Below the pieces are notes generated by a model. The model did no database searches. It saw nothing but the letters and a program-made list of their open reading frames with translations, and was not told where the DNA came from. A DNA stretch of 64,000 nucleotides from Hydrogenophaga sp. (lineage in GTDB: Bacteria > Pseudomonadota > Gammaproteobacteria > Burkholderiales > Burkholderiaceae_C): the NCBI RefSeq assembly GCF_030158645.1, contig NZ_JAOASO010000085.1:1-64000 (forward strand). The letters are read 5' to 3'. Below are positions 738 through 19,764 of this stretch, piece by piece. Numbering within the stretch: position 1 is the stretch's first letter; each line of letters begins with the position of its first letter. The position numbers were made by a program, and so were the translations under genes.

Positions 738-766
738 CACTGTGTCGACAATGTGTCGACACAGTG
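738..766. promoter_or_regulatory. Perfect 13-bp inverted repeat, candidate enhancer site
   Basis: Arm CACTGTGTCGACA (738-750) and arm TGTCGACACAGTG (754-766) are exact reverse complements around a 3-base centre. No T-run follows, so it is a poor terminator. It lies a little over 100 bases upstream of the sigma-54 promoter at 870, the usual distance for an upstream activating sequence of a sigma-54 enhancer-binding protein. The role is inferred from position and symmetry. Confidence 0.6.
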
Positions 767-869
767 GCGTGCCCAGGCGCCGCCCACCGCCAGCGCCTTC
801 TTCCCCCCAACCCCCATAAACCCAACAAATTCAACGCCCTTCCAGCGTTGACACACCCGCTTGCCGCCC

Positions 870-885
870 TGGCACGTTGGTTGCG
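870..885 (+). promoter_or_regulatory. Sigma-54 (RpoN) promoter of the sulfurtransferase operon
   Basis: The sequence TGGCACGTTGGTTGCG has GG at 871-872, exactly ten bases, then GC at 883-884. It matches the RpoN consensus TGGCACG-N4-TTGCW at all but the last position. It lies about 50 bases upstream of the ATG at 934. A weak TTGACA at 848 is present without a matching -10 box. Confidence 0.75.
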
Positions 886-933
886 CTAGAGACCTCAGGC
901 AATCCCGCCTTCCGCCACTTCCGCGAGGTCTCC

Positions 934-1827
934 ATGAGCATTGAAGCCACCCTGATCGCCCCCGCCCAGCTTGCTGCGCTGCAGTCGTCCGAACCCGTCG
1001 TGGTCATCGACACGCGTGACGCGGACACCTTTGCCGCCGGTCACATTCCCGGTGCCGTGAACCTGCGCGAAGTGTTCACCTACCTGGCCACCTCCTCGCC
1101 CGAAGGCTTGCAGGCGCTCAAGGCCACGTTTGCCGAAGCGCTGGGCGCGGCCGGTTTGTCGGGCAAAGAAACGGCGGTGTTTTACGAAGACGCGATGAAC
1201 AGCGGCTACGGCCAGTCGTGCCGCGGCTACTACCTGCTCACCTGGCTGGGCTACCCCAAGATCAAGGTGCTCAACGGCGGCTTCAGCGCCTGGAAATCCG
1301 CGGGCCTGCCCATCTCCACCACGGCCGTGGCGCCCACGCCCGTGACCTTCCCGAGCGACCTGCCCACCGCCGACGTGATGCTCACGCAGGAAGAGGTGAA
1401 GGCCGCGCTGGGCACCGACACCGTGTTGCTCGACGTGCGCGACATCGACGAGTGGATCGGCGAATCGTCGTCGCCTTACGGCAAGGACTTCGCGCCGCGC
1501 AAAGGCCGCCTGCCGGGCGCCAAGTGGCTGGAGTGGTACCGCTTCATGAAGCCCTCGGCCCAAGGCCCGGTGTTCAAGACGCCCGACGAAGTGAAGGCCG
1601 AGTGCGCCACCGCCGGCATCACCACCGACGACACGATTTACCTCTACTGCTTCAAGGGCGCGCGCGCGTCCAACACCTTCCTGGCGCTCAAGCAGGCCGG
1701 CTTCTCTGATGTGCGCATGTACTTCGGCTCGTGGAACGAGTGGTCGCGCGACGAGAGCCTGCCGATCGAGACCGGTCTGCCGGTGGCCAAGTCCACCAAG
1801 AAGCCTGCGCTGGCGCTGGCCGCCTGA
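934..1827 (+). CDS. Two-domain rhodanese-type sulfurtransferase
   Basis: This 297-residue protein has two rhodanese modules (about 6-125 and 150-285), the layout of thiosulfate and 3-mercaptopyruvate sulfurtransferases, which move sulfane sulfur to a thiol acceptor through a cysteine persulfide. The active-site loop of the C-terminal module is CFKGARAS with Cys239. The N-terminal module keeps the fold (VIDTRDADTF, GHIPGAVN) and has an SCRG element. The start at 934 is preferred over the TTG at 877, which lies inside the sigma-54 promoter. It is the first gene of a four-gene same-strand cluster. The loop CFKGARA differs from the classical CRKGVT, so the substrate is open. Confidence 0.88.
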   Translation: MSIEATLIAPAQLAALQSSEPVVVIDTRDADTFAAGHIPGAVNLREVFTYLATSSPEGLQALKATFAEALGAAGLSGKETAVFYEDAMNSGYGQSCRGYYLLTWLGYPKIKVLNGGFSAWKSAGLPISTTAVAPTPVTFPSDLPTADVMLTQEEVKAALGTDTVLLDVRDIDEWIGESSSPYGKDFAPRKGRLPGAKWLEWYRFMKPSAQGPVFKTPDEVKAECATAGITTDDTIYLYCFKGARASNTFLALKQAGFSDVRMYFGSWNEWSRDESLPIETGLPVAKSTKKPALALAA

Positions 1828-1867
1828 GCCTTTCCTTTTCCCCGATTCCTGAACACCTGGAGACACC

Positions 1868-2428
1868 ATGTCCGCTACCGACACGCTCGAGCCTGTGACC
1901 ACCGTCAAGGCGTACCTGCGCCCTATCGACAGCGAGGGCCTCGCGGCCTTCGCCGCCAAGGGCAAGGCCAACCCCGCCAGCCGTGGCACCAACAAGGTCC
2001 ACACCGTCATGGAGGGGCAGTACCGTTCGCTCTCCACCGTGGGCAACCACGCCCCGGTGGTGGTGGACGAGCCGCTACACCTGTTTGGCGAAGACACGGC
2101 CCCGGCGCCCGGCGAGATCGTGCTGTCGGGCCTGGGCGGGTGTCTCGCGGTGGGCATCACGGCGGTGGCCACCTGGAAGGGCGTGAAGCTCAGCAAGCTC
2201 GAGGTCTTCATGGAAGGCGACATCGGCAACCCCGCAGCCTGGGGCGCCGGTGGCGCGCTGGAGAAGCTGCCGGCCGAGATGGGCTTCCAGGCGATCCGCG
2301 TGAAGGTGGTGGTGGAGGGCGATGCGCCGCGCGAGGTGCTCGACGAGATCGTCAAGCACGCCAACTTCTACTCGCCGGTGGCCAACAGCATGCGCAACCC
2401 GATCCCGTTCGAGATCGCGCTGGCCTGA
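1868..2428 (+). CDS. OsmC-like protein with one conserved cysteine
   Basis: This 186-residue protein belongs to the OsmC/Ohr superfamily, whose known members reduce organic hydroperoxides or handle sulfur species with a two-cysteine centre. The first cysteine is in the expected helix (GLGGCLAVG, Cys92). At the place of the second cysteine the sequence reads NFYSPVANS, so Ser169 replaces it. Classical two-Cys peroxidase chemistry is therefore unlikely unless a partner thiol takes part. It lies 40 bases after the sulfurtransferase, with AACACCTGGAGACACC before its ATG. Thiol or persulfide handling alongside the rhodanese is an inference. Confidence 0.82.
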   Translation: MSATDTLEPVTTVKAYLRPIDSEGLAAFAAKGKANPASRGTNKVHTVMEGQYRSLSTVGNHAPVVVDEPLHLFGEDTAPAPGEIVLSGLGGCLAVGITAVATWKGVKLSKLEVFMEGDIGNPAAWGAGGALEKLPAEMGFQAIRVKVVVEGDAPREVLDEIVKHANFYSPVANSMRNPIPFEIALA

Positions 2429-2431
2429 AGG

Positions 2432-2510
2432 CTTCGACAAGCTCAGCCCGAACGGGATTTGTACGCTCGTCCTAACCCACCCCCTCCGTTCGCCCTGAGC
2501 CTGTCGAAGG
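2432..2510. repeat. Dispersed repeat, inverted pair of arms
   Basis: Arm 2432-2455 contains CGACAAGCTCAGCCCGAACG and arm 2486-2510 contains CCGTTCGCCCTGAGCCTGTC. They are near-exact reverse complements around about 30 bases and could form a long hairpin between the OsmC and flavoprotein genes. The same core recurs at 3692, 25630 and 45304. Confidence 0.8.
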
Positions 2511-2534
2511 GCTCACCCACATGTTGGAGCTTGA

Positions 2535-3683
2535 ATGAACCCGAATGACCTGCCCCCCGAGTTGACCCACGAAACACCGGCCCACGCGCTGCTGGCCGCG
2601 GTGCGCGAGGTGGCGCAGGGCCCGTTGGCGGCGGTGGTCGAGTCCATCGACCGCACCGGCTACTACCCGCGCGCAGAGCTGCAGCAGCTCGCCGCGCTGG
2701 GCGCCATGAGCGCCCACCTGGACGGCGACGCCGGCCCCGGTGATTTCGGCCTCTCGATCCGCGCCATGGCCGAGGCCTCGCGCGTGTGCGGCGCCACCGG
2801 CTTCATGATGTGGTGCCAGGCCGTGTGCGGCCTGTACATGCAGCAGTCGGGCAACCCCGCGCTGAACGGCGAGGCGTTGATGGCCCATGTGCGCGGCGAC
2901 ACGCTGGGCGGCACCGCGCTGTCCAACCCCATGAAGAGCTACGCGCAGATCGAAAGCCTGCTGCTCAAGGCCACGCCGGTCGAAGGTGGCTACCTCGTCA
3001 ACGGTTCGCTGCCCTGGGTGAGCAACCTCGGGCCCGACCACGCCTGCGGCGCCATTGCGGCGGTGGTGAACGGCGACGAGCACATCGGCCGTGAGGTGAT
3101 GTTTCTGCTGCGCTGCGACGCGCCCGGCGTGGAGCTGCGCGAATGCCCGAGCTTCTCGGCCATGGAAGGCACGGGCACCTACGCCCTGCGCCTCAAAGAC
3201 CATTTCATCGGCGCCGACGACGTGATCGCCGACGCCGCCAAACCCTTCATTGCCCGCATCCGCGCGGCCTTCGTCATGCTCCAGTGCGGCATGGCGGTGG
3301 GCGTGACGCAAGGCGCCATCGACTCCATCTGGGAGGTCGAAGCGCAGCTGGGTCATGTGAACCAGTTTCTGGAAGACCGGCCCGACGCGCTGCAGGCCGA
3401 GCTGGACGCGCTCACCGCGCGCGTGATGAAGCTGGCCGAGACGCCCTACAACGCCTCGGTGGAGTTTTTCATCGACGTGCTCGACGCCCGCGCCCACGGC
3501 GCTGAACTGTCGTTGCGCGCCGCGCAGTCGGCCCTGTTGCACCAGGGCGCACGCGGCTACCTCATGAGCTCGGCCGTGCAGCGCCGCGTGCGCGAATCGC
3601 ACTTTGTGGCCATCGTCACACCCGCCATCAAACACCTGCGCAAGGAAATCGCGCGGCTCTCCGCCGAGGTGATGCCGGCATGA
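2535..3683 (+). CDS. SfnB/acyl-CoA-dehydrogenase-like flavoprotein
   Basis: This 382-residue protein is an acyl-CoA dehydrogenase-fold flavoenzyme: a helical N-terminal domain, a middle beta domain (about 125-220, including [13 protein letters not shown]) and a C-terminal four-helix domain (about 230-380). With a rhodanese, an OsmC protein and a rubredoxin reductase as neighbours it resembles the SfnB/DszC-type branch linked to organosulfur use rather than beta-oxidation. No substrate can be read from the sequence. The ATG at 2535 follows TTGGAGCTTGA. Its stop codon overlaps the next start (ATGA at 3680), which implies translational coupling to the electron-transfer gene. It could also be a dehydrogenase of unknown substrate. 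Confidence 0.75.
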
Positions 3684-4957
3684 ACACCCCACCGTTCGGG
3701 CTGAGCTTGTCGAAGCCCTCACCAGACGCCACCGTGCAGGCCCTGGCGCCGTGGCAGCAATACATTTGCGACGCCTGCGGCTACATCTACAACGAAGCCG
3801 ACGGGGACCCCGACGGTGGCCTGGCCCCCGGCACGCGCTACGCCGACATCCCCGACGACTGGGCCTGCCCGCTCTGCGGCGTGACCAAGGCCGACTTCAC
3901 ACCGTACACACCCCCCAGCCTCGACGCCTTGCGCGCCGGCCTTCAAACCAGCACGCCGGTGGCCACGCGCGGCGCGGCGGGCGTGCTCATCGTCGGTGCC
4001 GGGCGTGCCGGCTGGCAGATGGCCGAGGCGCTGCGCGCGCTCGACGCCACGCTGCCCATCACCGTGGTCACGGCCTGCGCCGGTGATGTGTACGACAAGC
4101 CCCTGCTGTCCATCGCCATGGCGCGCAGCACCGCGCTGGAGGCCATGGTCAAGGAAAGCGGTGCCGCCGCGGCCGCCCGCCTGAACGTGCGCCTGCTCGG
4201 CCACACCCACGCCGTGCGCATCTGCACCGACACGCAGCAGCTGCGCACCACGCGCGGCGTGCTGCGCTACGACCGGCTGGTGCTGGCCCACGGCGCGCAG
4301 GCCGCGCTACCCCCCACGCTGCCCGCCGCGATGTGCTGGCGCATCAACCACCTCGCGGCGTACCAGAAGCTGCGCTCCGCACTCGGCGACACACCGAAAG
4401 ACGTGGCCATCGTCGGTGCCGGCCTGATCGGCAGCGAGCTGGCCAACGACCTCGCACTCGGCGGCCACCGCATCACGCTGCTGGACGTGCAGACCGAGCC
4501 GCTGGCGCGCTGGAGCGCCGAGGGCGCGGGCAGTCAATTGCTCGACGCATGGAAAGACCTGGCCATCCGCTTCGTGGGCGGTGTGCAGGTGGCGCAGCTG
4601 GAGCAGGTGGCGGGCCGCTACCGCATCACCACCGCCTGCGGCCAGCGCTTCGCGGCCGACCAGGTGATCGCCGCCGCCGGCCTGGCCACACCGCCGCGCC
4701 TGGCGCAGAGCGCCGACCTGAAGTGGGACAACGGCATCGCGGTGGACCCGGCGAACCTGAAGACCAGCGTCGAGCACATCCACGCCATGGGCGACTGCAT
4801 CGCCATCAACGGCCAACCCAGCCGCTTCATCGAACCCATCGCCCGCCAGGCCCGGGCCATCGCTGCCGACATCTGCGGCGCCACCCCGGCGCCCTACGAG
4901 CCGCGCGCGGCGGTGGTGCGGGTCAAGACGACGTCACGGCCGTTGACCTTGCATTGA
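3680..4957 (+). CDS. Rubredoxin fused to FAD/NAD(P)-dependent reductase
   Basis: This 425-residue protein joins a rubredoxin (about 28-77; iron ligands Cys30, Cys33, Cys63 and Cys66 in CDAC and CPLC) to a pyridine-nucleotide-disulfide-type reductase. The FAD motif GAGRAG is near 106, the NAD(P) motif GAGLIG near 246 and the second FAD contact is HAMGDC near the C-terminus. Electrons would pass from NAD(P)H through FAD to the built-in rubredoxin and on to an oxidase, plausibly the flavoprotein encoded just upstream. The first residues after Met (about 5-13, FGLSLSKP) are encoded by a dispersed repeat, so the natural start may be later, for example the GTG at 3734. Fusion in this order is uncommon. 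Confidence 0.85.
3692..3717. repeat. Dispersed repeat copy inside the rubredoxin-reductase N-terminus
   Basis: Contains CCGTTCGGGCTGAGCTTGTC, a single arm of the repeat also found as pairs at 2432-2510 and 45304-45370. Read in frame it encodes PFGLSLSKP just after the annotated start. Confidence 0.8.
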
Positions 4958-13601: not shown

Positions 13602-14069
13602 TCACAGCCCGAGTTCGGTCAGGCCCGAATGGTCCTGTGGTCGCGCACCCAGCGGCCAATGGAACAGGCGTTCATCTGCCGCAATCGGCCGGTCGTTGAT
13701 GCTGGCGTGGCGCTGCTCCATGTAGCCCTCGGCAGTGAACTGCCAGTTCTCATTGCCGTGCGAGCGGAACCACTGGCCCGAGTCGTCGTGCCATTCGTAG
13801 ACGAAGCGCACCGCGATGCGGTGGTCGGTGAAGGCCCAGAGTTCCTTGATGAGGCGGTACTCCAGTTCCTTCGCCCACTTGCGCACCAGGAAGGCGTGCA
13901 CCTGCTCGCGGCCCACCGGGAACTCCGCGCGGTTGCGCCAGCGCGTGTCCTCGGTGTAGACCTTGACCACGCGGTCGGGGTCGCGTGAATTCCACGCGTC
14001 CTCGGCCATGCGCACCTTCTGCGCAGCGGTCTCGGCCGTGAACGGCGGCAGCGGCGGGCGCGGCTCCAT
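13602..14069 (-). CDS. DUF1348/SnoaL-like nuclear-transport-factor-2 fold protein
   Basis: This 155-residue protein has an NTF2-like fold with conserved features of the DUF1348 family ([43 protein letters not shown]). Its function is not established. Its start overlaps the cyanase stop (CATCA at 14067-14071), so it is translated with cynS as the last gene of the cyanate cluster. A role linked to cyanate or nitrile-type nitrogen use is inferred only from position. Confidence 0.85.
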
Positions 14070-14512
14070 CAGTACTGTTTGTACGGGAGGAATTTGCCGG
14101 ACAGCACCACGTTCACGCGGTCGCCTTTGGGGTCGGCCTGGCGCTGGATGTCCATGCTGAAGTCGATCGCGCTCATGATGCCGTCGCCGAATTCCTCGTG
14201 GATCAGTTCCTTGATGGTGGTGCCGTAGACGCTGACGATTTCGTACCAGCGGTAGATCAGCGGGTCGGTGGGCACGGGCGTGGGCAGCGAGCCTTTGTAG
14301 GGCACGACCTGCAGCCACTTCTGCTCTTCGGTGGTCAGGCCGAAGATCTTGCCCACCACCTTGGCCTCGGCGGCGGACGCCGTCATCTGGCCCAGGCACA
14401 GCGCCGTGGTCCATTCCTTGGACTGGCCCACTTTTTTGGCCACGTCGGCCCAGCTGATGCCTTTGGCGACTTTGGTGGAGATGATCTTTTCGGTGACGTC
14501 GAGTCGGTTCAT
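14069..14512 (-). CDS. cynS: Cyanate hydratase (cyanase)
   Basis: This 147-residue cyanase converts cyanate and bicarbonate to ammonia and CO2 (via carbamate). The length fits the family. The catalytic triad is in place: Arg88 and Glu91 ([13 protein letters not shown]) and Ser114 ([10 protein letters not shown]). The N-terminal part is the helical domain of the decamer. It follows an ABC transporter of the nitrate/cyanate class, which supplies the substrate, and precedes the DUF1348 gene. Confidence 0.97.
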
Positions 14513-14557
14513 GGTTGCCTCGTTGCTTGTGATGAAAAAAGGAAAACGGAAATGGGG

Positions 14558-15430
14558 TCAGTGCGCCTTGGCGCGGCTCACCAGGAAATCAACAATGTGG
14601 TTTCGGAGGTCGTAGTAACCGTCGAGGTGATGGAGTTGCGCGCGTGTGCGGCTGCGCGGCAGCGGGTTCACCACCACCTCGGCCATGCCGCCGGGCTTGT
14701 AGCCGTTCGGCGTTTCGGTTCCGTTGCTCATGAGCAGGATCCGGTCGGCCAGCAGGATGGCTTCGTCCACGTCGTGCGTGATCATGAAAACGGTTTGCTG
14801 CGTCTTGCGCACGATGCCCATCAGCTCGTCCTGGATGGTCCCGCGCGTGAGCGCATCGAGCGCGCCGAAGGGCTCGTCGAGCAACAGCATCTTGGGCTGG
14901 ATGGCGAAGGCGCGTGCGATGCCCACGCGCTGCTTCATGCCGCCGGAGAGCTGGCTGGGCTTCTTGTCGATGGCCGGCGACAGACCCACCAGCGCCACAA
15001 ACTTTTCGGCGTGTTCGTTGATCTGCGTGCGGCTCCAGTCGGGCCAGCGCGACTTCACGGCGAACGCGATGTTCTGGCGCACGGTGAGCCAGGGCATGAG
15101 CGCGTGGCTCTGGAACACCACGCCGCGCTCCAGGCTGGGGCCAGCGATCTCGCGGCCGTCCATGAAGCAGTGGCCGGAGCTGGCGGTGTCCAGACCCGCC
15201 AGCACGTTGAGGATGGTGGTCTTGCCGCAGCCGCTGTGGCCGATGATGCAGACGAACTCGCCCTTGTCGATGGCGAAGGACACGTCGGCGAACACCGGCT
15301 TGTCGGCCTGGAAGGCCTTGGCGAGTTTTTCAACCTGGAGGAAACCGGTCATCTTGGGGGCTTTCGTTGGGGCCGGTGCGGCGGGCTGGGTGGCCACGGG
15401 GCTTTCGCGCACGCTGGTGTCACTCCACAT
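14558..15430 (-). CDS. Nitrate/cyanate-type ABC transporter ATP-binding protein
   Basis: This 290-residue ATPase has Walker A GHSGCGKT, signature LSGGMKQR and Walker [13 protein letters not shown], all intact. It is of the NrtD/CynD/SsuB class that energises uptake of small anions. The first 25 residues or so are a Pro/Ala-rich extension; translation may begin later at [10 protein letters not shown]. Its start overlaps the permease gene by 11 bases. Cyanate is the inferred substrate because cynS is next in the operon. Confidence 0.92.
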
Positions 15431-16283
15431 AGGTCACCGCCTTCTGCAGCTGGGCAAACATGAGGTCGAGCAACATGCCGACCACGCCGATCAACAGCAC
15501 GGCAAAGATCACGTTGGTGAGCGAGAGGTTGTTCCACTCGTTCCAGACGAAGTAGCCCACGCCGGTGCCGCCCACCAGCATCTCGGCGGCCACGATCACC
15601 AGCCACGCAATGCCCATGCTGATGCGCATGCCCGTGAGGATGGTGGGCGCCGCGGCCGGCAGGATCACCTGGAAGGCCTTGCGGATCGGGTTCACTTCCA
15701 GCGTGCTGGCCACGTTGAGCCACTCGCGCTTGACGGCGGACACGCCGAACGCGGTGTTGATCAACATGGGCCACACCGAGCAGATGAAGATCACGAAGAT
15801 GCCGCTCACATCGGAGTCTTTGAGCGTGTAGAGCGCCAGCGGCATCCAGGCCAGCGGGCTGATGGGCTTGAGCACCTGCACGAAGGGATCGAACGCCTTG
15901 CGCATCAGCGGGGACATGCCGATGAGGAAACCCAGCGGAATGGCCACCGCCATGGCGAGCAAAAAGCCCAGGCCCACGCGGCCGAGCGAATGCGCGAGCT
16001 GGATGCCGATGCCCTTGTCGTTCGGACCCTTGTCGTAGAAGGGGTCGGACAAATGCCCCCAGGTGGCCTTCGCCACCTCGATGGGCGGCGGGAAGCCGGA
16101 GCTTTTCTCGGCACCGGGATCCTTGCCCATCATCTTGGCGTACTCGATCTGCTCGGCCGTCATGCCGGTGGACGCACCACCGATGCTCGGGCCGGAGGTG
16201 GACAGCTGCCACGCCCCGATGAACACGCAGAAGATGATCAGCGAGACCAGGGCCGCGCGCAGGTTGAGGCTGGTGGCTTTCAT
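15420..16283 (-). CDS. Nitrate/cyanate-type ABC transporter permease
   Basis: This 287-residue inner-membrane protein has one N-terminal anchor (about 12-30) and five further segments in the binding-protein-dependent permease domain. The EAA-like loop lies around AAPTILTGMRISMGIAW. It includes an unusually long periplasmic segment between the first two helices. It lies 2 bases after the substrate-binding gene and overlaps the ATPase gene. Confidence 0.92.
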   Translation of the reverse strand: MKATSLNLRAALVSLIIFCVFIGAWQLSTSGPSIGGASTGMTAEQIEYAKMMGKDPGAEKSSGFPPPIEVAKATWGHLSDPFYDKGPNDKGIGIQLAHSLGRVGLGFLLAMAVAIPLGFLIGMSPLMRKAFDPFVQVLKPISPLAWMPLALYTLKDSDVSGIFVIFICSVWPMLINTAFGVSAVKREWLNVASTLEVNPIRKAFQVILPAAAPTILTGMRISMGIAWLVIVAAEMLVGGTGVGYFVWNEWNNLSLTNVIFAVLLIGVVGMLLDLMFAQLQKAVTYVE

Positions 16284-16285
16284 GG

Positions 16286-17695
16286 TCAGGTGGCCTTGCT
16301 GATGGCGAAGCTCTTCAGGTATTCAGCCGGCTTCGAAGCGTCAAACGCCTTGCCCATGATGGTGTGCTTGGTGTAGCCACCGCCGGCGGCGAACGGCTGG
16401 CCCAGGTCCTTCATGTGCTTGCGCGCGTCGGTGATCAGGAACACCTTCTCGGCCACGGCCTTGTAGTCCACGTCGCCCTTGATGTAGCCCCAGCGCTGCA
16501 TCTGCGTGAGCATCCACACGGCCATGCTCTGCCACGGCATCGGGTCGAAGTCGGCGCGCTCGGGCACGTTCTGGATCTTGCCCAGGCCGTCGGCAAACCG
16601 GCCGGTGAGCACCTGCGTGAGCACGGCCTCGGGCTGGTTGAGGTACTGGCTGGGCGCGATCACCTTGGCGATCAGTTCGCGGTTCTTCGGGTCGCGCGCC
16701 ATGGCGGCCGAGGTGAGCACCGCGCGGTACAGCGCGGCGAAGGTGTTGGGGTTCTTCTGGATGAACTCGGTGCTGGTGCCGAAGGCGCAGCAGGGGTGGC
16801 CGTTCCAGAGGTCGCGGGTCAGCACGTGGATAAACCCGACTTCGTCGAACACCGCGCGCTGGTTGAACGGATCCGGGCCGAGGAAACCGTCGATGTTGCC
16901 GGCGCGCAGGTTGGCCACCATCTCGGCCGGCGGAATGACGCGCAGCTGCACGTCGGTGTCCGGGTTCAGGCCGTTCTCGGCCAGGTAGTAGCGCAGCAGG
17001 AAGTTGTGGATCGAGTAGTCGAACGGGATGCCGAACTTGAAGCCCTTCCAGTTCTTCGGGTCGCGGTTGTTCTTGTGCTTGAGCGCCAGCGTGATGGCCT
17101 GGCCGTTGATGTTCTGGATGGTCGCCACGTTCATCGGCACGGCGTTGCTGCCCAGGCCCAGGCTGATGGCCAGCGGCATCGGCGAGAGGAAATGCGACGC
17201 GTCGTATTCCTTGTTGATCATCTTGTCGCGCACCAGGGCCCAGCCCGCGGTCTTGGTGACTTCGACGTTGAGGCCCTGCTTCTGGTAGAAGCCCAGCGGC
17301 GCGGCCATGATGAGCGGCGTGGCGCAGGTGATCGGGATGAAGCCGATCTTCAGGTTGGTCTTCTCCAGCGAGCCCTGTTTTTCCTGGGCCATGGCCTGCA
17401 GGCTGGCCACCGGCAACACGCTGGCGATCGCCGCCATGGCCGTGCCCTTGCCCACCGCGCGCAGGAAGCGGCGACGCACCTCGTCGTGCGGGAACAGCGC
17501 CTTGACCAGCGTGGCTTCGATGAACTCGTTGCTGTAGGCCTCGAACTCGGCGGTCTCGCTGCGCCGGCGCAACTCGATGGCCGCACCGTCCGCGGCCACC
17601 TCGGCGTGGTGGTCAGCGATCGTGTGGTCGCGTCCGCAGCTGCACTTGAGCATGAGCGGACGATCGGCGTTGTAGGGATCGAAGAATTCGGACAT
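16286..17695 (-). CDS. NrtA/CynA-type substrate-binding protein with internal Tat signal
   Basis: This 469-residue protein is of the CmpA/NrtA/CynA family, the receptor that captures nitrate, bicarbonate or cyanate for the adjacent transporter. The binding domain runs from about 112 to the end (IGFIPITCATPLIMA). A twin-arginine motif RRRFLRA is at 74-80 with a hydrophobic stretch up to Ala103. About 70 residues precede it, with a small Cys/His cluster (CSCGRDH, Cys18 and Cys20). Export would require cleavage after an unusually long cytoplasmic leader, or the leader may bind metal before export. A later start would remove the cluster, but I see no better one. Confidence 0.88.
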   Translation of the reverse strand: MSEFFDPYNADRPLMLKCSCGRDHTIADHHAEVAADGAAIELRRRSETAEFEAYSNEFIEATLVKALFPHDEVRRRFLRAVGKGTAMAAIASVLPVASLQAMAQEKQGSLEKTNLKIGFIPITCATPLIMAAPLGFYQKQGLNVEVTKTAGWALVRDKMINKEYDASHFLSPMPLAISLGLGSNAVPMNVATIQNINGQAITLALKHKNNRDPKNWKGFKFGIPFDYSIHNFLLRYYLAENGLNPDTDVQLRVIPPAEMVANLRAGNIDGFLGPDPFNQRAVFDEVGFIHVLTRDLWNGHPCCAFGTSTEFIQKNPNTFAALYRAVLTSAAMARDPKNRELIAKVIAPSQYLNQPEAVLTQVLTGRFADGLGKIQNVPERADFDPMPWQSMAVWMLTQMQRWGYIKGDVDYKAVAEKVFLITDARKHMKDLGQPFAAGGGYTKHTIMGKAFDASKPAEYLKSFAISKAT

Positions 17696-17730
17696 GGCGC
17701 GCACCTCGTGAGTTGATGGACGAGGTGGAC

Positions 17731-17748
17731 ATTGCAAGCACCGGGCCA
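17731..17748 (-). promoter_or_regulatory. Sigma-54 (RpoN) promoter of the cyanate cluster
   Basis: On the minus strand the sequence reads TGGCCCGGTGCTTGCAAT: GG, exactly ten bases, GC, in close agreement with the RpoN consensus TGGCACG-N4-TTGCA. It is about 40 bases upstream of the transporter's first start codon. Nitrogen-limitation control through NtrC would be the expected logic. Confidence 0.7.
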
Positions 17749-17812
17749 GATACGGGCCAGGGGTACCCGTTGATCGCCGTGTTTGCCAAGTCGCGGGGCC
17801 TTGGCCGACCTT

Positions 17813-17832
17813 GTGTAGGGCCAGCCCTACAC
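17813..17832. promoter_or_regulatory. Palindrome upstream of the cyanate operon promoter
   Basis: GTGTAGGG (17813-17820), CCAG, CCCTACAC (17825-17832): perfect 8-base arms, about 65 bases upstream of the sigma-54 -24 element. It could be the binding site of an enhancer-binding protein or of the response regulator encoded just upstream. Confidence 0.55.
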
Positions 17833-17854
17833 GGCGGTGGTCAAAACCGGCGAA

Positions 17855-18529
17855 TCAGGGCTTGGCGCGGTGCCGTTCGGCGTAGAGCGCGAGCTCCACG
17901 TCGTTCTTGGTACCGGTTTTCTCGAGCACGCGGGCCCGGTAGGTGCTGACCGTGTTGGGCGCCAGGCCGAGCTGTGCACCAATTTCGCTCACGGTCTGGC
18001 CTTGTGTGAGCAGGCGGTAGACCTGGTGCTCGCGGTGCGACAGGGTTTCGGGCCCGGCCTGCGCGGTGGCGTTGCCCACGGCGGCGGCCAGCGCCTCGGC
18101 CGTGGCCTGCGTGAGGAACACCCCGCCGCCCGCCGCCTTGCGCACGGCGTAGAGCATGTCGTCGGGGTCGGCGCTCTTGTTCAGGTACCCGCACGCGCCC
18201 AGGCGGATGCAGCGCACCGCGTACTGCTTTTCGGGGTAGGTGCTCAGCATGAGCACCGGCAGCAGCGGGTGCTCACGTTTGATGGTCTGCAGCACGTCTA
18301 GCCCGTCGAGCCCGGGCATGGCGATGTCGAGCAGCACCAGGTCCAGGCCGTCGAGCCCGCCGAGCGCGCGCACCTTGGCCAGCACCTCGTCGCCGCTCTG
18401 CGCTTCGGCCACCACCTGCACGTCGGGCGCGTCGGCCAGGATCTGTTTCAGGCCTTCGCGCACGATGCGGTGGTCGTCGCCGATCAGCACGCGGATGGTT
18501 TCGGACAACACGTCGAACACGGTGGTCAT
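17855..18529 (-). CDS. NarL/LuxR-family response regulator
   Basis: This 224-residue protein has a receiver domain (about 12-130, acidic pair Asp18/Asp19 and phosphoacceptor Asp68 in LLDIAMPG) and a LuxR-type helix-turn-helix (about 158-220, LSHREHQVYRLLTQGQ). Its start overlaps the kinase stop codon (ATGA, 18526-18529), so the two form a two-component operon. The next genes on the same strand are the cyanate transporter and cyanase, which makes that operon a possible target. Confidence 0.93.
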   Translation of the reverse strand: MTTVFDVLSETIRVLIGDDHRIVREGLKQILADAPDVQVVAEAQSGDEVLAKVRALGGLDGLDLVLLDIAMPGLDGLDVLQTIKREHPLLPVLMLSTYPEKQYAVRCIRLGACGYLNKSADPDDMLYAVRKAAGGGVFLTQATAEALAAAVGNATAQAGPETLSHREHQVYRLLTQGQTVSEIGAQLGLAPNTVSTYRARVLEKTGTKNDVELALYAERHRAKP

Positions 18530-19764
18530 GCAGGGGCTCCGCTGGGTGTCTGGAGAGGCAGTTCGATCGACAGGCGCATCAGCGTGCCCTGTCCTGGTGC
18601 ACTGGTGATCTGGATGTCGCCGCCGAAATGGCGGGCACGTTCGCGCATGCCCATCACCCCGTAGGCATCGGCGGCTTCAAAGGCCTGGGCCGGTGCACCC
18701 ACGCCGTCGTCCCGCACCGAAAGGCTCAGCACCCCGGCCTGCACGGCGATGCGCACATCGAGATGGCGCGCGCGCGCGTGCCGGCCCACGTTGCTCAACA
18801 TCTCCTGGAAGATGCGGAACACGCCCATGGCCAGGGGGTCGGGCGGGTCGGGTGCGTCGTCCACCTCCATGCACCAGTTCAGGGCCATCTCGGCCGACTG
18901 CACGAATTCCTGCGCCTGCCATTCGAGCGCGGCCCACAGGCCCTGGTGGTCCAGGATGCTGGGGCGCAGGTCGGTGATGATGCGGCCCACGTTGTCCACC
19001 GCGTTCTCGATCAGCCGGCTCATGTTCTGGCACTTGCAACGCATGCGCTCGCGCATGTCGCCCGCGGCTTCCTGCGTGCGCTGCTCCTGCTCGGAGAGGC
19101 GCTTGTCCAGCCAGTTCACGTCCATCTTCAGCGCCACCAGCAGGCTGCCGAGCTCATCGTGCACCTCGCGGGCGATGCGGGTGCGCTCTTCCTCGCGCAC
19201 GGCCTCCGACCGTGCGGCCAGCTCGCGCACCTGCTTGAGCGCGGTGGCCAGTGCGAGCGTGCGCTCACCAACGCGCTCTTCCAGCTCGTCCTTGGCGCGC
19301 TGCAGCGCGTCGGCCGCGCGCTTGCGCTCGGTGATGTCGACGAAGGTCACGACCGCGCCGCGCACCGCGCCGCCGTCGATGATGGGGTGGCTGGAGTACT
19401 CCACCGGGAAGCTGGAGCCGTCGCGGCGCCAGAACACCTCGGTGTCGATGCGACAGGGCAGCCCCTCCAGAAACGCCTTGAAGATCGGGCAGTCTTCCAC
19501 CGGGTAGTGCGCGCCGTCGGCGTGCGAATGGTGGGTGAGGTCGTGCATGTTGCAGCCCAGCAGCTCGCCGGGCTCGAAGCCGATCATGCGGGCGCCGGCG
19601 TGGTTGATGAACACGCACAGGCCGTCCAGATCGATGCCGAAGACGCCCTCGCCGGTGGAGGCGAGCAGCAAAGCCAGCGGATCGCCCCAGGCGCGGGTGT
19701 TCGGTGTGGGTGCGTCGATCTGCATGCACCCGTTGCACGCAATGAATGTGCCAAAGCGGTGCAT
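18526..19764 (-). CDS. NarX/DegS-type sensor histidine kinase with PAS domain
   Basis: This is a 412-residue soluble kinase with no membrane segment. A PAS domain (about 30-150, GVFGIDLDGLCVFINHAG) is followed by a coiled coil (155-190), a HisKA_3 phosphoacceptor helix with His202 (AREVHDELGSLL) and a C-terminal ATPase domain (RDDGVGAP, GVMGMRERA). A CNGC near residue 10 and a CKC in the dimerisation region could respond to metal or redox. A later start at 19725 would remove the CNGC. The PAS signal is unknown. Confidence 0.88.
   Translation of the reverse strand: MHRFGTFIACNGCMQIDAPTPNTRAWGDPLALLLASTGEGVFGIDLDGLCVFINHAGARMIGFEPGELLGCNMHDLTHHSHADGAHYPVEDCPIFKAFLEGLPCRIDTEVFWRRDGSSFPVEYSSHPIIDGGAVRGAVVTFVDITERKRAADALQRAKDELEERVGERTLALATALKQVRELAARSEAVREEERTRIAREVHDELGSLLVALKMDVNWLDKRLSEQEQRTQEAAGDMRERMRCKCQNMSRLIENAVDNVGRIITDLRPSILDHQGLWAALEWQAQEFVQSAEMALNWCMEVDDAPDPPDPLAMGVFRIFQEMLSNVGRHARARHLDVRIAVQAGVLSLSVRDDGVGAPAQAFEAADAYGVMGMRERARHFGGDIQITSAPGQGTLMRLSIELPLQTPSGAPA

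Follow-up and report, generated by a model that had tools for sequence, protein, structure and literature searches.

A four-gene operon at the start of the window (the whole 64,000-nucleotide stretch of Hydrogenophaga sp. contig NZ_JAOASO010000085.1 that was analysed) encodes a rhodanese, a one-Cys OsmC-family protein, a flavoprotein of the acyl-CoA dehydrogenase (ACAD) fold and a rubredoxin-reductase fusion, and this module is tied to cyanate. It is interpreted here, with a probability of about one half, as the front end of a heterotroph thiocyanate-to-ammonia pathway, in which thiocyanate (SCN-) would undergo oxidative desulfuration to cyanate and cyanase would act next, the anion being used as a nitrogen source. 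The sequence-only reading had placed the operon in organosulfur use; the presence of cyanase and CynABD-like genes in the window, and their standing in line with the module in relatives, moves the reading to thiocyanate or cyanate nitrogen use.

Four plus-strand genes lie downstream of a sigma-54 site, and their order, common strand and ATGA overlap (3680-3683, between the flavoprotein and reductase genes) are as first described, as evident from the sequence and from Pfam matches. The two-domain rhodanese, a sulfurtransferase (934-1827), matches Pfam Rhodanese in two stretches and carries C239 within a CFKGAR loop as well as C96, both invariant in the aligned sequences (63/63). The OsmC-family protein (1868-2428; Pfam OsmC) has C92 as its sole conserved Cys, present in 107/107 aligned sequences; OsmC/Ohr peroxidases follow a two-Cys rule, and the module protein lacks such a pair of catalytic cysteines. 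The third gene (2535-3683; Pfam Acyl-CoA_dh_N) encodes the ACAD-fold flavoprotein, a candidate thiocyanate oxygenase, and the fourth (3680-4957; Pfam Rubredoxin and Pyr_redox_2) a rubredoxin fused to an NAD(P)H:rubredoxin reductase-type flavoprotein. The presence of sulfur-handling partners in the operon, as proposed earlier, is borne out by the rhodanese and OsmC genes, and the idea that the rubredoxin-reductase feeds the flavoprotein is plausible. A REP-like repeat of the GTTCGGGCTGAGCTTGTCGAAG type occupies the OsmC-flavoprotein gap (2429-2534) and recurs at 3680-3724, where the copy doubles as coding sequence for the reductase N-terminus.

The four-gene set is a real unit. Gene content was counted in the best 80 of 193 matching loci of relatives, many of which are short, and the counts for the wider neighbourhood are lower bounds. 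All four genes stand together on one strand in 51/80 loci (47/72 when only loci with more than 2.5 kb upstream are counted), which disposes of the possibility that they rarely occur together in relatives. The reductase adjoins the flavoprotein on the same strand in 79/80 loci, OsmC is found in 73/80 and rhodanese in 52/80. An activator gene lies within 10 kb in at least 59/80 loci, and a cyanase gene within 12 kb in at least 48/80.

On its minus strand, at 13602-19764, the window carries genes for a DUF1348 protein, cyanase and an NrtABD/CynABD-like transporter, as well as those for a response regulator and a PAS kinase. The distance from the module to cyanase and the transporter, which is of the NitT/TauT (CynABD-like) type, is 9-13 kb. 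The cyanase CynS (14069-14512) matches PF02560 and TIGR00673 above cut-off and is the sole match in the genome. Beside it are genes for an NrtD/CynD-like ABC ATPase (14558-15430; TIGR01184, slightly under cut-off), an NrtB/CynB-like ABC permease (15420-16283; TIGR01183, above cut-off) and an NrtA/CynA-like substrate-binding protein (16286-17695; NMT1_2), all on the minus strand. The window thus holds both parts of a Cyn system, a cyanase gene and next to it a transporter (14558-17695) which, from sequence similarity, appears to be of the CynABD type. In loci L051, L060 and L063 of relatives, the genes for OsmC, flavoprotein, reductase, CynA, CynB, CynD, CynS and the activator run in one direction; similar same-direction runs occur in Acetobacter, Marinobacter and Caballeronia (L092) plasmids. 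In Marinobacter, CynS follows directly 3' of the reductase, in L147 it lies within the run, and a rhodanese gene stands 5' of cynA in the cynABDS of L164 and L165.

Linkage was further evaluated by comparing 33 proteins (the activator and the products of 32 genes from the first 31 kb of the window) with 37 distant loci chosen for the flavoprotein, from which L137 (same genus), L099 (Neisseria gonorrhoeae) and L168 (a second copy of L092) were omitted. The flavoprotein is present in all 37 by choice; matches were obtained for OsmC in 29, CynD in 25 (a count that can include other ABC ATPases), CynA in 23, CynB in 21, the activator in 17, CynS in 16, rhodanese in 12, the full reductase in 10 and the kinase in five, where part of the signal comes from the PAS region in long activators. 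No match in these loci was obtained for 22 of the 32 window genes, and one more matches a single locus. Inherited synteny is ruled out by this control as the sole cause of the cyn linkage; it could explain the linkage within Comamonadaceae alone.

The association is also visible at the level of whole genomes. In a phylum draw of 398 genomes, the flavoprotein (E<=1e-60) was found in 15 and cyanase in 70, with cyanase in 12/15 genomes that have the flavoprotein versus 58/383 that do not; in an order draw of 300 genomes, the corresponding values are 14/25 and 52/275. The window's own genome is counted in both draws, which share four flavoprotein genomes, giving 36 in all. Classified by whether OsmC or AhpD is encoded near the flavoprotein, and with the genomes of one family not being independent, these comprise 27 OsmC-type, 8 AhpD-type and one genome (G588) interrupted by a contig end, which has cyanase. 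Cyanase was found in 23/27 OsmC-type genomes, from 12 families, and within 12 kb in 17 of the 23; it was found in 0/8 AhpD-type genomes. In a flavoprotein tree of 60 sequences, the AhpD-type members are scattered over at least three places, one of them next to the window's group (support for the family root, 0.54); on account of this scatter, OsmC and AhpD-like thiol proteins seem to replace one another. Malikia spinosa carries both types (L058, L063).

The sigma-54 (-24/-12) promoter TGGCACGTTGGTTGCG is located at 870-885 on the plus strand. Upstream of it, a perfect 13-bp inverted repeat (738-750/754-766), the presumed activator site (upstream activator sequence, UAS) at 738-766, is made up of two TGTCGACA palindromes whose starts, at 743 and 754, are 11 bp apart, and its centre is ~118 bp upstream of the -24 box; both elements are present as the sequence-only reading had reported. 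The promoter pattern alone, at up to one mismatch, gives three matches in the window against a mean of 2.4 in shuffles, which is not significant; the evidence becomes strong because the site is conserved across relatives. The first gene and sufficient upstream DNA are available in 73 loci (window included); these are relatives and hence not independent, and 70 have such a site 5' of the first gene. Forty of the 70, the window among them, contain an exact TGTCGACA within 260 bp upstream, and 51 contain at least two palindrome sites at up to one mismatch, compared with a background for TGTCGACA of 0.003 per shuffled upstream and 0.011 per random window from the same loci. The TGTYRACA pairs of relatives lie mostly 80-160 bp upstream of -24. 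This conservation supports the predicted sigma-54 control with an upstream activator-type site.

The pair TGTYRACA-N3-TGTYRACA (up to one mismatch) occurs at exactly one place in the genome assembly (3.7 Mb, 92.8% complete), namely upstream of the operon, while the reversed-pattern control gave 0; the search for the repeat elsewhere, suggested earlier, therefore returned this operon only. Chance origin of the palindrome site is ruled out by its conservation among loci and its single genomic occurrence. The pair also stands 5' of OsmC in L152 and, with one mismatch, in L139, whose genome belongs to another class of the phylum; weaker pairs (two mismatches) were seen in L157, L159 and L162. No palindrome site was found in the upstreams of L028, L051, L060, L063, L064, L081 and L088, among others. 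The genome has one match for rpoN.

The conserved activator, as judged from the gene in L002/L090, combines GAF, Sigma54_activat (AAA+) and Fis-type HTH_8 domains. Its best named family is NifA, with 465.5 bits under a cut-off of 528.85, a score short of NifA proper; from this similarity, a NifA/CynF-like activator of the operon is probable. In L157, L159, L164 and L165 it is divergent to the cyn genes and is flanked on the opposite side by OsmC and flavoprotein. The control of SfnR type envisaged earlier is thus not supported, the conserved activator being NifA-like and in some relatives divergent to cynABDS. In the window's own genome, the activator gene is close to the end of contig C136 (L090: 8363-9991), and position 1 of the window is also the start of contig C85. 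In L011 and L137 the activator precedes rhodanese by ~4-5 kb on a shared strand, and the end of C136 can be aligned with the start of L012, 7.4 kb upstream of the L012 rhodanese gene; from these alignments, the ends of C136 and C85 are probably adjacent in the genome. Longer activators (~640 aa) are encoded in L141, L142, L143 and L146, those of L141 and L142 partly resembling the window's PAS kinase.

According to the proposed pathway, a NitT/TauT-type ABC transporter (CynABD-like) would import thiocyanate or cyanate. NADH would reduce the FAD reductase, from which electrons would pass singly via rubredoxin to the ACAD-fold flavoprotein, and this enzyme, together with O2, would oxidise the sulfur of SCN- and release cyanate. 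The sulfane sulfur would be captured on the invariant OsmC Cys and then passed to rhodanese, and cyanase would convert cyanate and bicarbonate to ammonia and CO2. Under ammonium scarcity, an activator of the NifA/CynF type acting at the TGTYRACA pair would drive the operon via sigma-54. The reaction proposed is SCN- + O2 + NADH + H+ -> OCN- + S(0) on thiol + NAD+ + H2O, since thiocyanate is one transportable anion that would give both cyanate and sulfane sulfur on S-oxidation. The flavoprotein may, tentatively, represent a new enzyme type, an ACAD-fold flavin oxygenase which would take electrons from rubredoxin or [2Fe-2S] ferredoxin, convert thiocyanate to cyanate and use a one-Cys OsmC or AhpD-like protein as sulfur acceptor.

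In four distant loci, further neighbours are concerned with sulfane sulfur. In L138 and L139, a Blh-type persulfide-dioxygenase gene adjoins the reductase; its match spans positions 138-422 out of 423 in the Blh sulfur-dioxygenase model (E ~1e-115), with scores of 383 and 389 bits that are under the full-length cut-off of 625. A truncated TauE-like frame, under the Pfam cut-off, follows 3' of the Blh-type gene in L139. In L150, genes for an encapsulin-2A shell, a cargo cysteine desulfurase and a serine acetyltransferase lie 3' of the flavoprotein, with rhodanese also adjacent, and L160 has, 1-6 kb past its transporter genes, a cargo cysteine desulfurase, a rhodanese, an acetyltransferase and, by similarity to L150, a match to the shell. 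A DUF302-type gene adjoins the flavoprotein on the rubredoxin side in L130, L132, L134, L157, L162, L163, L164 and L165, two of these eight loci being shorter copies of regions counted also in longer form.

The electron supply varies as well. Rubredoxin is either fused to the reductase or separate, with its four Cys conserved in the 18 sequences passing the length filter. In L147, a [2Fe-2S] ferredoxin takes its place, beside an FAD reductase that shares 67% identity with the L096 enzyme, whose best-matching family is HcaD. In several loci from another class, a search next to the flavoprotein found neither rubredoxin nor ferredoxin. By analogy, the one-electron carriers with an FAD reductase would resemble oxygenase electron chains.

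The closest published counterpart is CynFABDS of Pseudomonas pseudoalcaligenes CECT5344, which shares a sigma-54-type activator, an NrtABD-like CynABD transporter and CynS, and in which cynF is divergent to the cyn genes, like the activator of L157, L159, L164 and L165 (PMC6627978). Expression of cynABDS requires CynF, a putative sigma-54-dependent regulator, and is cyanate-induced and ammonium-repressed (PMC6627978). The module described here adds rhodanese, OsmC, flavoprotein and rubredoxin-reductase, and its activator is likened to CynF on its type and gene arrangement; the words OsmC, rubredoxin and acyl-CoA are absent from the CynF paper (PMC6627978). The copper thiocyanate dehydrogenase (TcDH) of Thioalkalivibrio, Afipia and others has the same proposed outcome, SCN- giving cyanate and sulfane sulfur followed by cyanase; TcDH, however, is a copper enzyme sent to the periplasm (PMC5328954), whereas a flavoprotein fed by NADH and rubredoxin is proposed here. 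The cobalt thiocyanate hydrolase cluster scnABC shares a NitT/TauT ABC transporter, cyanase and sulfur-transfer genes (PMC5328954) but follows the carbonyl sulfide (COS) pathway, and no COS chemistry is implied for the present module. An NHase-type alpha subunit gene gave no match in the window's own genome, the control genomes being equally silent. The NCBIfam Sao system (SaoX/SaoA/SaoP ABC transporter) and an OsmC-related (seleno)protein are among the nearest named families for the transporter and OsmC parts, at scores well under the curated cut-offs.

If the proposed reaction is correct, the ACAD-fold oxygenase would supply the missing first step of the heterotrophic 'cyanate pathway'. Use of SCN- as a nitrogen source via cyanate has been described in heterotrophs, in the parts of the report available, with no first enzyme named, and a metatranscriptome described there contained cyanase reads and no thiocyanate dehydrogenase reads (PMC6172326). 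In E. coli, cynT was induced by SCN- treatment, cyanate contamination not being excluded (PMC12096828). Within the accessible portions of the open-licence PubMed Central (PMC) literature, including PMC5328954, PMC8567248, PMC6627978, PMC8061750, PMC13021748, PMC12096828, PMC8561711 and PMC6172326, the copper dehydrogenase and the cobalt hydrolase are the only first thiocyanate enzymes identified, and no description of the present gene combination was found. The module suggests unrecognised thiocyanate use by ordinary bacteria and supplies a specific enzyme candidate, its cyanase-bearing form occurring in at least 12 sampled proteobacterial families. A correct assignment would add an enzyme class, give a role to an OsmC group that has none, and help to predict which bacteria in the environment could clear mine and coke wastewater of thiocyanate.

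Several observations weigh against this interpretation. Twelve of the 36 flavoprotein genomes are without cyanase, namely the eight AhpD-type and four OsmC-type genomes (G187, G404, G522 and G669, three of them from one genus), and the AhpD-type systems need another fate for cyanate or another substrate. In L140-L144 and L146, from another class, the cyn genes stand apart from the flavoprotein run as a unit of their own, and no rubredoxin was found there. The flavoprotein offers no substrate-specific residue, and its thiocyanate role is a predicted one. Cyanase also accompanies the carbonyl-sulfide pathway and is alone no proof of a cyanate route (PMC5328954).

Two further observations, on neighbouring genes and on the site pair, count against the thiocyanate reading. 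The DUF1348 gene and the LuxR-type response regulator 5' of the cyn genes (17855-18529, minus strand), although the latter is found in 31 loci of relatives, match 0/37 distant loci, and the regulator and the PAS sensor kinase (18526-19764, minus strand) may not be part of the module. The TGTYRACA pair was found neither 5' of the window's own cyn genes nor in L051, L060 and L063. A second sigma-54-like site, TGGCACATTCATTGCG (19738-19753, minus strand), stands 5' of the kinase, regulator and cyn genes, the start of the kinase probably being at ~19725, downstream of this site. As the site lacks a TGTYRACA pair, a second activator may control these genes.

Unlikely, though the most probable of the rivals, is that the flavoprotein obtains sulfur or nitrogen by oxidising another sulfur compound, such as an isothiocyanate, a thioamide or a sulfonate; the cyn tie would then reflect shared nitrogen control or a related transported anion. 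The SsuA/SaoX-like nature of the ABC2 binding proteins, the eight sampled AhpD-type genomes without cyanase and the encapsulin sulfur genes near L150 and L160 would all accord with such a substrate. The occurrence of cyanase in 23/27 OsmC-type genomes, in several of them in line with the module, argues for cyanate instead, and, by eye among the neighbourhoods listed, only AhpD, DUF302 and dioxygenase genes recur as further candidates.

Rhodanese and cyanase within one module would also suit a cyanide oxygenase, in which the flavoprotein would convert HCN to cyanate for cyanase and rhodanese would convert cyanide to thiocyanate, and an oxidative cyanide-to-cyanate conversion has been proposed in bacteria. 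This is improbable, as HCN needs no ABC transporter and both persulfide dioxygenase and OsmC would be unneeded. Moreover, cyanate is no intermediate of cyanide use in P. pseudoalcaligenes CECT5344, according to two reports (PMC8567248, PMC6627978). For the NitC-type cyanide route, no nitrilase was noticed by eye among the neighbourhoods listed, no model-based search having been made.

Low probability is likewise assigned to protection rather than nutrition, in which the module would repair or remove thiol-reactive electrophiles, e.g. hypothiocyanite or cyanate. OsmC and AhpD-like proteins are thiol proteins, and an AraC regulator 5' of the AhpD-type module of L054 has RclR as its best NCBIfam family (83.9 bits against a cut-off of 400). 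Nutrition, however, better explains the uptake transporters and a control of the sigma-54/NifA type, and the known cyn genes are ammonium-repressed (PMC6627978).

The flavoprotein aligns over its full length with acyl-CoA dehydrogenases, with Protein Data Bank (PDB) matches at E 2e-13 (protein) and 1.5e-16 (profile). In an alignment to 8i4p_A, the catalytic Glu of the YEG motif is replaced by Thr362, conserved in at least 97% of 125 sequences, the alternative Glu position of isovaleryl-CoA dehydrogenases being judged by eye only. An ordinary acyl-CoA dehydrogenase operon, to which the Pfam and significant PDB matches might point, is highly improbable, because the catalytic Glu is missing across the family, four curated ACAD models match with scores far under cut-off, and no recurring CoA, thiolase or electron-transfer flavoprotein (ETF) gene was noticed nearby by eye among the neighbourhoods listed; beta-oxidation is rejected on these grounds.

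The ACAD fold and a sulfur context are common to the flavoprotein and the SfnB/DszC-type oxygenases. The partner of SfnB/DszC is a free-flavin reductase, whereas here it is rubredoxin or ferredoxin with a reductase. The SfnB model (TIGR04022) gave 12 matches in the genome at E<=10, none of them at 2535-3683, the flavoprotein had no SfnB match at E<=0.001 in the curated-model scan either, and the earlier 'SfnB-like' label of the flavoprotein could not be maintained. The SfnB/SfnR organosulfur reading is set aside on this result and on the NifA/CynF-like nature of the conserved activator.

AhpD-type modules with an SsuA-like ABC transporter were observed in L054, L055, L057, L058, L069, L148, L151, L160 and L167, with no cyanase within the available stretches of these nine loci. 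No transporter or cyanase was noticed beside the flavoprotein in Neisseria gonorrhoeae L099 (6001-7068) or in L149 and L158, from genomes that resemble it, L099 being judged not informative; the AhpD-like protein and the flavoprotein are kept in these three loci, and rubredoxin was seen in L149 and L158. The record of L099 (NZ_CP119140.1) is a 2.17-Mb gonococcal sequence labelled plasmid, yet chromosome-sized.

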